The notes beneath the pieces are model-generated. The model did not search any database, was not told where the DNA came from, and saw nothing but the letters and a program-made list of their open reading frames with translations. Source: an uncultured Coprococcus sp. (lineage in GTDB: Bacteria > Bacillota_A > Clostridia > Lachnospirales > Lachnospiraceae). From it: a stretch of 5,240 nucleotides of DNA. The stretch lies in NCBI GenBank assembly GCA_900767685.1, contig CAAGAB010000204.1:1-5240 (forward strand). The letters run 5' to 3'. Within the stretch, counting starts at the first letter, position 1. Every line of letters begins with the position of its first letter. This document shows positions 2 to 2,419 of this stretch, one piece after another. The translations under genes and the position numbers were made by a program.

Positions 2-2419
2 TTTATATTTGTAAATAAGATGGACATGACGGGGTATGACAGGGAGTACCTCATGGACAATATCAGGCACAGACTGAGTGATGGCTGTGTCGATTTTTTA
101 TGTGAAGATGCTGGTGAACACATAGCCATGTGCGATGAGAACATGCTGGAGAGATTCCTTGAAACAGGGGCAAATGCAGAATCTGACGTGGTGTGCGCTA
201 TATCAGACAGAAAGCTGTTTCCTTGTTATTTTGGTTCGGCACTTAAAAATGATGGTGTGGCTGAGCTGCTGGATGGAATGAACAGATATGTGACTGAGCC
301 TCAGCGAACGGATGAATTTGGCGCGAGGGTATTTAAGATTGGCCGTGATGACAAAGGAGAGAGGCTGACTTATATGAAGATCACAGGGGGGACCTTGAGA
401 CTAAAGGATGTACTCACGCTTACAGGCAGACAAGGCGAGGAAACACTAGAAAAGGTAAATCAGATAAGGGTATACTCCGGCGCAAAGTATGACATGGTGG
501 ATCATGTCACTGCGGGCTGTGTATGTGCTGTTCCGGGACTGGTGAATACCTACGGCAGACAGGGAATCGGTGCCTGCCCGGATGGAGAGCTCCCAAGTCT
601 GGAGCCGGTTCTCAGCTATAAGGTCATGTACCCGACTGATGTGGATGCGGTCACGATGGTGTCAAAGCTCAGACAGCTGGAGGAAGAGGATCCATTGCTG
701 CAGGTGCAGTGGAATGAGGCAGCCGGTGAGATATACATCAAGGTCATGGGCCAGGTGCAGCTGGAGGTCGTGGCGCAGATGGTCAGAGACAGATTTGGAA
801 TTCCCATCACGTACGGTCAGGGCAGGATATCATATAAGGAGACGATTGCAGCTCCGGTCATGGGAGTGGGACACTTTGAACCGCTCAGACATTACGCTGA
901 AGTACATCTGCTGCTTGAACCTATGGAAAATGGCAGCGGTATGTGCTTTGACAGCATTTGCAGTGAGGATGTTCTGGACAAGAACTGGCAGAGATTGATC
1001 CTGACTCATCTACAGGAAAGGGAATTCAGAGGGGTGCTGACGGGATCCCCGATCACGGATGTGAAGATAACTATCACCGCAGGCAGGGCGCATCAGAAAC
1101 ACACCGAGGGCGGTGATTTCAGACAGGCGACTTACAGGGCTGTGAGACAGGGACTTATGATGGCGGAAAGTGTCTTGCTTGAGCCGGTGTATGCATTTAA
1201 AATAGAGGTACCGCAGGAGCATGCGGGCAGAGTGCTTGCTGACATAGTGAAGATGAGCGGCAGCATGGACGGGCAGGAGATCGCAGGCGAGACAACGGTT
1301 ATCACTGGACATGCCCCGGTATACACTATGAGAGAGTATTATAGTGAACTCACGGCATTTTCCAGAGGTACAGGCAGGCTTCAGGTGGATATAGACGGCT
1401 ATCAGCCATGTCACAACACCGAAGAGGTTCTGGCTGAGAGACATTATGATCCTGAGCTTGACAGGGTTAATCCATCATCATCGGTATTCTGCGCTCACGG
1501 TGCAGGTTATCTGGTTGACTGGTACGATGTGTATGAGAACATGCATGTGAAGGAGGATCCAGGATTTGAGATCTCAGGTCAGCTGGGTTATACAGAGGAT
1601 GGCGATGTTACGGATATTCCTGTGAACAGGCCGGGAAAGAGCGTGTCGGATATGTCCATCACGGACGAGGAACTCAGCGAGATATTTGCAAGGACATTTG
1701 GCGGAGATTACAAGGATAAGGATGTGGCACTGAACGGAAGATTCAGGAGAACTACATCTGAGTATAAGGTAAATGGAACTTCCGGCAGAGGAAGTGATGG
1801 CACAGCCGGAGGCGGCGCGTCTGTTGGTACGGCAGGAGATTCTTCAAGTTCGGGATATCGTGGAAATGGACAATATAATAAGAGTCAGTCCAGAGACAGA
1901 CAGCCCGGGAATGGGCCTCTTGTGGGCAGCAGGCCAGCCGACAGAGGGATAGCTACACCTGGAGCATTTAAGCGCAGAAAGACTGGCGAGGATTATGTCA
2001 TAGTGGATGGTTACAACGTCATATTTGCGTGGGATACACTTCGGGAACTGTCGGAGCACAACATAGACTCCGCGAGAGGAAAACTCATGGATATCCTGTC
2101 GAACTATCAGGGATATATGAACTGTCATCTGATAGTGGTATTTGACGGCTACAAGGTGAAGGACAACAAGGGGGAGAGATTTCCTTATGACGATATAGAG
2201 GTTGTGTACACAAAAGAGGGCGAGACCGCTGATGCGCACATAGAAAAGCTCACACATGAGCTTGCGAGAAAGCACAAGGTCACAGTGGTCACATCAGACG
2301 GACTGGAGCAGATAGTCACCATGGGACAGGGTGCGATCCGCATGTCCTCACGGGACTTCAAGGCAGAGGTTGAGAGGGTGAACGAACACCTGAGGGAAAA
2401 TTATTTGAAAAATGACTAG
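2..2419 (+). CDS. TetM/EF-G-like translational GTPase fused to a C-terminal YacP/Rae1-like NYN nuclease domain (5' partial)
   Basis: The frame is open to the left edge. Codons 2-25 read FIFVNKMD, the G4 guanine-specificity motif, aligning with TetM IFFINKID, so the ATG at 20 is internal and about 120-125 residues (P-loop, switches) are missing; I estimate ~925 aa in full. Numbering from that Met: end of the G domain with G5 'SAL' at 73-75; domain II ~97-190; domain III ~196-272; domain IV ~273-385; domain V ~386-465; a family extension ~466-584 including [12 protein letters not shown] (490-501); a Gly/Ser/Arg-rich linker ~585-657; and an NYN domain ~658-795. The NYN domain carries DGYN (Asp663), FDG (Asp709), ETAD (Asp738) and TSD (Asp760), the acidic set expected of this PIN-like fold. 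Family knowledge: TetM-like factors bind the ribosomal A-site region using GTP, and B. subtilis Rae1 cleaves A-site mRNA. Inferred role: a cytoplasmic ribosome-associated factor that may couple A-site entry to mRNA cleavage. The TetM tetracycline loop is replaced (357-365), so drug resistance is doubtful. Domain calls are firm; the function is inference. Confidence 0.9.

Follow-up and report, generated by a model that had tools for sequence, protein, structure and literature searches.

A clostridial gene joining an EF-G-like GTPase to a Rae1-type nuclease, a candidate stand-in for free Rae1

The window analysed here, a stretch of 5,240 nucleotides, carries a genuine fusion of an EF-G-like translational GTPase, a linker and a Rae1/YacP-type NYN nuclease, read from a single uninterrupted frame of 805 residues that is open at its 5′ end in the ORF listing of the window (coordinates in Table 1). 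On balance, we lean towards its product being a chromosomal translation factor of Clostridia, in which a GTPase of a separate clade carries a tethered and usually sole Rae1-type nuclease that would cut mRNA on paused ribosomes; it is probably a housekeeping factor. Comparison at the sequence level establishes the fusion itself, shows the motifs of both the GTPase and the nuclease to be intact, places the fused proteins in a clade that fits a single origin and reveals that free yacP is nearly excluded. That the fusion appears to stand in for free Rae1 seems to be the strongest new point of the analysis. An earlier note on this DNA had proposed one frame joining an EF-G-like GTPase to an NYN domain, and the ORF and its Pfam domains bear this out; the domain search suggested there recovered both parts.

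Table 1 Features of the fused gene, in window coordinates
Feature	Nucleotides	Strand	Basis and remarks
Fused gene: EF-G/Tet-like translational GTPase, linker, NYN_YacP nuclease	2..2419	+	ORF, Pfam, L001 alignment
G4 motif NKMD of GTPase	14..25	+	Alignment; P-loop and DTPGH precede the start of the window and are intact in L001
EF-G domain III	602..817	+	Pfam EFG_III, residues 201–272
EF-G domain IV	821..1165	+	Pfam EFG_IV, residues 274–388
Domain IV loop III signature KHTEGGDFR	1097..1123	+	Alignment; Tet rows have SPxSTPADFR there
EF-G domain V	1172..1417	+	Pfam EFG_C, residues 391–472
Family C-terminal signature (like SVFCxHGAG)	1478..1507	+	Alignment; after domain V
Disordered linker (predicted)	1574..1990	+	Mapped from L001 residues 648–752, pLDDT mostly <50
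Short helix within linker (predicted)	1664..1702	+	Helix 678–690 of the L001 model
NYN_YacP (Rae1-like) nuclease domain	1997..2410	+	Pfam model positions 1–140 of 166
Asp669, equivalent to Rae1 D7	2006..2008	+	5mq9 alignment; 77/77 fused
Asp715 of VFDG, equivalent to Rae1 D53 (counted on the 5mq9 row)	2144..2146	+	77/77 fused
Asp744 of ETAD, equivalent to Rae1 D81 (counted on the 5mq9 row)	2231..2233	+	77/77 fused
Asp766 of TSD	2297..2299	+	5mq9 alignment; 75/77 fused

The fused gene begins outside the window, not as a GTPase from nucleotide 2 as the frame had first been read. Its missing 5′ part can be judged from the nearest relative, L001 (89% identical over residues 1–805 of the window frame), which has 123 additional N-terminal residues that include the P-loop AHVDSGKTT and DTPGH, and whose start (ATG at L001:5632) overlaps the end of a membrane-protein ORF (LPG_synthase_TM). 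On the window frame, Pfam GTP_EFTU matches by its C-terminal part only (23.1 bits, cut-off 26.5), EF-G_D2 scores 25.6 bits (cut-off 27), and EFG_III, EFG_IV and EFG_C all lie above cut-off. L001 has GTP_EFTU, EFG_III, EFG_IV and EFG_C above their Pfam cut-offs and EF-G_D2 at 26.4 against 27. Mapping from the L001 model places the end of the folded GTPase and its C-terminal signature near nucleotide 1573. Past the fusion gene, the window encodes an FGGY-type carbohydrate kinase (2452–3939, TTG start, glycerol-kinase-like by eye) and a ROK kinase (4336–5238); an FGGY-type kinase also follows the fusion gene in L001.

The nuclease part is Rae1-like at the level of sequence and predicted fold. NYN_YacP matches residues 666–803 (E = 4.9e-48, 163.7 bits against a Pfam cut-off of 24.6), and the only two PDB sequences found at E 0.001 are 5mq8 and 5mq9, both B. 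subtilis YacP/Rae1 (E = 5e-25). A search with an AlphaFold2 model of the window NYN domain (pLDDT 86.0, pTM 0.82) using Foldseek returned Rae1 chains as the three best matches (TM 0.79–0.80, 38% identity), with the next match at E = 4e-3. The resemblance to YacP/Rae1 drawn earlier from the motifs DGYN, FDG, TSD and GQGAIR, all of which are present in the frame, is therefore upheld by profile, PDB sequence match and predicted fold, the last being the comparison with Rae1 that had been proposed. Alignment of the 77 fused proteins shows the aspartates of DGYN, FD(G/A) and (E)TAD to be invariant; among the exceptions for TSD, L078 ends at a contig end. We take D7 and D81 of Rae1 to be acidic residues of its active site, with D81 catalytic. 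The aspartates earlier numbered 663 and 709, counting from an ATG at nucleotide 20, are sound as residues and correspond to Asp669 and Asp715 of the open frame; the position of D81, counted on the 5mq9 row, is occupied by Asp744 and not by Asp709.

What the window NYN domain does not possess is the C-terminal helix of YacP, stopping at 142 of 169 profile positions. Using a profile built from stand-alone YacPs, this segment was kept in 28 of 28 stand-alone proteins (26 of which were in the profile) versus 9 of 81 fused NYNs, being absent from the other 72. The B. subtilis Rae1 allele R166P is grouped with loss-of-function suppressors (PMC6613710, in excerpt), and the R166 position falls, by position, in the segment missing from the window protein, so the window NYN could be altered or weak. 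We favour a reading in which the helix would dock free Rae1 on the ribosome and become needless once the GTPase docks; less favoured is that the fused NYN has changed its action. Because the helix is lost in most fused members, we take the pattern to suggest that the GTPase took over ribosome docking from the NYN.

Judged by its P-loop, DTPGH and NKxD motifs together with domains II–V, the GTPase part is a member of the EF-G/EF-2 family. Across 96 members (77 fused and 19 NYN-less) the P-loop AHVDxGKTT is kept throughout save for its first alanine (95 of 96), DTPGH is present in all 96, and each of the 50 Foldseek matches listed for L001 is an EF-G/EF-2 family entry. The best NCBIfam model for the family is tet_protect, although the four members scored (L001, 418.1; L009, 417.8; L111, 450.0; L074, 418.5 bits) lie well below its cut-off of 775, whereas Tet-type controls from other clostridial genomes lie above it (L129, a TetM, 879.7 bits; L127, 892.5 bits). 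Members are also below the cut-offs of the EF-G models.

Loop III of domain IV reads KHTxGGDFR, with K, H, T, both glycines, D and F invariant in the 77 fused and 19 NYN-less proteins (15 clostridial and 4 spirochaete in this alignment); four further NYN-less members also read KHTEGGDFR. The Tet version, present in three Tet rows, was found in none of the 96 members aligned, and the EF-G row has a DSSEMAF-like loop at this position. In EF-G the loops at the domain IV tip contact peptidyl-tRNA, and in Tet proteins they contact the drug (PMC4342817, in excerpt). The proline of YSP, residue 509 in the TetM control L129, lies in the drug site against C1054 (PMC8161019, in excerpt); the family has an invariant lysine there (96 of 96). 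Fused and NYN-less proteins also share a signature following domain V that neither the Tet nor the EF-G rows show, and a quick tree separates the family from the three Tet rows (SH-aLRT 99). On the features tested (tet_protect at 418–450 against 775 bits, Tet loop III in 0 of 96) we reject membership of the Tet family, and the earlier label ‘TetM-like’ does not hold in a functional sense. By the tests run, these sequences thus describe an EF-G-type clade of its own and no tetracycline-protection protein. A further GTPase, at L126:2478–4385 (genome G227), is Tet-like with a loop III of HSNPGDF; at 606 bits against 775 it is below the Tet cut-off, and it falls outside the fusion family.

Genomic context bears on the same question. 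A plasmid search gave 1,383 records with a match. Of the 30 matches listed, which are spread down the ranking, only the top one belongs to the family: its replicon is 518 kb long, its identity 55% and its annotation ‘translation factor GTPase family protein’. The others listed are Tet, EF-G, RF3, TypA and unnamed proteins of 22–39% identity, and a few more family records may lie between the first and second of the listed matches. Beyond the fusion itself, no neighbour cluster recurs in more than 10 of the 80 loci fetched. With no recurrent neighbours and one family match among the plasmid matches listed, a mobile resistance island is unsupported. In L001 the fusion gene overlaps its upstream ORF, so a leader would have no space immediately ahead of the gene. 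Atkinson 2015 suggested a drug role (PMC4342817, in excerpt), by which the protein would protect the ribosome against tetracycline or another drug, with the RNase added to the resistance mechanism. We hold this to be highly improbable: that published suggestion, the choice of tet_protect as best model and the match along the whole of TetM 3j9y speak for it, but the model scores, the loop III difference, the lysine at the TetM Pro509 position, the separate clade, the plasmid result and the lack of leader space in L001 all point the other way. If our reading is true, a large group of chromosomal genes would be freed from suspicion of tetracycline resistance.

The fusion is no peculiarity of one assembly. 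Searching with the window protein, we fetched 80 loci, the best 80 of 136 relatives found; 76 carry the fusion (L078 being cut by a contig end), and the remaining four, all spirochaete, stop after the GTPase. The earlier note had allowed that the in-frame join might be absent from related genomes, which is not so, and these loci, together with the class-wide draw below, lead us to reject an assembly artefact.

For the draw, 391 Clostridia genomes were sampled. A YacP match is present in 249 and the GTPase, at an analyst-chosen threshold of E ≤ 1e-100, in 164; both parts occur in 156, of which 130 are fused by frame length, 17 separate and 9 ambiguous with shortened frames. ‘Fused’ here denotes a frame of at least 700 residues at the NYN match or at least 780 at the GTPase match, most of these proteins being classed by frame length alone and not by individual reading. 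In one genome separate by frame length, G302, the two parts most probably belong to a fusion broken across two contig ends, and this genome was left out on both sides of the comparison that follows; among the 17 separate genomes, the GTPase match of G227 is the different, Tet-like protein of L126. The survey of spread that had been proposed thus finds the fusion widespread. GTPase without YacP was seen in 8 of the 391 genomes (in G211 with the match at a contig end), YacP without GTPase in 93 and neither part in 134, so neither part is indispensable. Ninety of the 93 YacP-only genomes have a protein of stand-alone length (46 and 44 from two readings); the other three are G409 (342-aa frame), G326 (under cut-off) and G294 (451-aa frame).

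Stand-alone yacP is nearly excluded where the fusion is present. Among the 76 genomes of fused loci, the fused NYN is the sole YacP match in 75, the exception (G015) adding a weak match (25.2 bits) that lies in a frame of 721 residues. In the class draw, 1 of the 130 fusion-bearing genomes also has a stand-alone yacP, versus 106 of 251 other classified genomes, a comparison that ignores kinship; in 90 of the 106 the GTPase is missing and in 16 it is a separate protein, and the 9 ambiguous genomes and G302 are left out. The lack of a stand-alone yacP in genomes with the fusion, raised earlier as a point to survey, is thus nearly general. Only five genomes of the draw have two YacP matches: in G216, G280 and G320 the second is partial and under cut-off, G213 has two fusions, and G407 has the fusion and a free yacP, so the two can coexist. 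The two fusion copies of G213 (G213:C48 and G213:C16) have frames of 890 and 894 residues.

The chromosomal site of free yacP tells a similar story. Of 25 free yacP loci, 24 have sigH as a neighbour and 20 have rlmB (the 20 include L089, from which the queries came), the order being mrnC–rlmB–yacP–sigH wherever all four were seen; the five without rlmB include L086, near a contig end, and L103. By their usual annotation, we take rlmB and mrnC to be rRNA genes. When the rlmB locus was inspected in 29 fused genomes (~1.5 kb either side), 28 had no yacP there, and in 16 of those 28 rlmB and sigH are still in one stretch; G407 keeps rlmB–yacP–sigH alongside its fusion. Such yacP-less rlmB loci are consistent with what a takeover of free Rae1 by the fusion would leave behind.

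The same neighbourhood invites a different view of the substrate, namely that the NYN processes rRNA or tRNA and not mRNA, and that the GTPase brings it to ribosomes that are damaged or still being assembled. Besides the adjacency of stand-alone yacP to rlmB, and often mrnC, this can call on what has been proposed before, both for NYN domains and for these proteins (PMC4342817, in excerpt), and on the placing of yacO (rlmB) and rae1 mutations in one pathway in B. subtilis (PMC6613710, in excerpt). However, the characterised Rae1, called a ribosomal A-site endoribonuclease, needs translation and destabilises mRNA (PMC6613710, in excerpt), and we consider an rRNA or tRNA substrate improbable.

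Two quick tree searches, with SH-aLRT as the only support measure, address the history of the family. The GTPase tree includes 39 of the 77 fused proteins and drew a warning for its long EF-G branch. Its fused rows group together (SH-aLRT 91), with four spirochaete rows as the sole others inside, and their sister group consists of 19 NYN-less clostridial rows (SH-aLRT 92), values of 91–92 for the split being below the 95 at which a branch of the tree is starred. The spirochaete proteins (L070, L074, L076 and L080, from Treponema and kin) have the GTPase without an NYN and group with two horse-gut Lachnospiraceae fusions (SH-aLRT 99); a profile search found no YacP match in those four genomes. 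The simplest reading of these sequences would be a single fusion event, after which gut spirochaetes acquired the gene and lost its NYN. That NYN-less relatives exist suggests that the GTPase is useful by itself.

The NYN tree was built from 41 fused and 27 stand-alone NYNs. Its fused rows group together (SH-aLRT 99), and a single free-standing NYN, L103 of G321, falls among them. This YacP (L103:1483–2004) has no rlmB or sigH adjoining, with mntP-like and aspS-like ORFs nearby by eye; it is perhaps an NYN domain set free again by fission, or transferred.

How closely the two halves cooperate is best considered at the linker. The L001 model (pLDDT 80.5, pTM 0.60) has two folded modules joined by low-confidence residues 648–752, and linkers of the 77 fused proteins span 80–162 residues (median 94). 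The flexible linker described earlier (1772–1990) is right in its nature and its end, though it starts near 1574 and has one short helix inside. Of the 77 fused proteins, 54 have a linker helix motif like DKELxxIFERTYG by a strict pattern and 59 by a looser one; it is a possible docking motif. The linker might nonetheless be a mere tether, with the GTPase and NYN doing separate jobs on one chain, shared for co-expression or local concentration, and no GTP-controlled hand-off between them. We regard this as rather unlikely. The variable length and predicted disorder of the linker, the persistence of both NYN-less GTPases and stand-alone YacPs and the nesting of NYN-less spirochaete genes among fused ones all suit such an arrangement; the near-exclusion of stand-alone yacP, the missing C-terminal helix and the recurrent linker helix instead point to some integration.

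In the translation-factor reading that we prefer, the GTPase would engage the ribosome at its A-site/factor-binding region; binding at the A site, over the site of EF-G, is described for Tet-type factors (PMC8161019, in excerpt). We infer that it would recognise ribosomes with an empty A site, whether paused or stalled, and leave or swing out after GTP hydrolysis. The tethered NYN might then enter the A site, or act from beside the GTPase, and would cut mRNA as Rae1 does. Domain IV of an EF-G-like factor and a docked Rae1 would compete for the same A-site space, so delivery of the NYN by the GTPase would have to be sequential. Counting against this explanation, the modules also occur apart, as the 19 NYN-less clostridial GTPases and the YacP-only genomes of the draw attest. 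A bolder version is tentative, and we incline against it: a self-contained, GTP-timed A-site mRNA cleavage factor that arose once, displaced free Rae1 and now occurs in about one-third of the sampled clostridial genomes, the KHTxGGDFR clade being a new, drug-independent subfamily that senses empty A sites. A fusion that seemingly replaces free Rae1 names an EF-G-like GTPase as a partner in finding paused ribosomes, and makes testable the question of whether GTP binding gates the cut.

The architecture is already in print: in 2015, Atkinson reported that Tet proteins of ten Clostridiales species had gained a YacP-like NYN RNase domain, and suggested an RNase-based resistance mechanism and rRNA cutting (PMC4342817, in excerpt). 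What appears new here, from sequence comparison, is that the GTPase is non-Tet by the tests run, that the fused NYN is usually the sole YacP and that its C-terminal helix is mostly lost; among the papers listed, we recognised none that makes the Tet-exclusion, Rae1-replacement or tail-loss points. Nor did we recognise another description of the fusion among them, although Leroy 2017 (EMBO J) and Condon 2018 (RNA Biol), the latter reportedly on the distribution of Rae1, might mention it.

Set against known systems, the fusion GTPase shares its EF-G-like domain order with Tet(M)/Tet(O), the closest curated family model, and matches TetM 3j9y along its whole length, but is only ~28–32% identical to these proteins, differs in loop III and the C-terminal signature, falls far below the family cut-off and has no sign of mobility in the material examined. 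With EF-G and EF-G2 it has fold and domain order in common, and is told apart from EF-G by KHTxGGDFR in place of the DSSEMAF-like loop. The Rae1/YacP of B. subtilis (PF05991; 5mq8, 5mq9) is the same domain by profile, sequence and fold, with its four conserved acidic positions also kept in the window protein; the window NYN differs in that it shares a chain with a GTPase, is encoded elsewhere than at the rlmB locus and has no C-terminal helix. The clostridial ‘Tet’ proteins of Atkinson 2015 have the same architecture, and the window protein looks like a member of that set; they were filed as Tet with a resistance or rRNA-RNase role (PMC4342817, in excerpt), whereas here the Tet signature is absent and the fusion is linked to replacement of Rae1.
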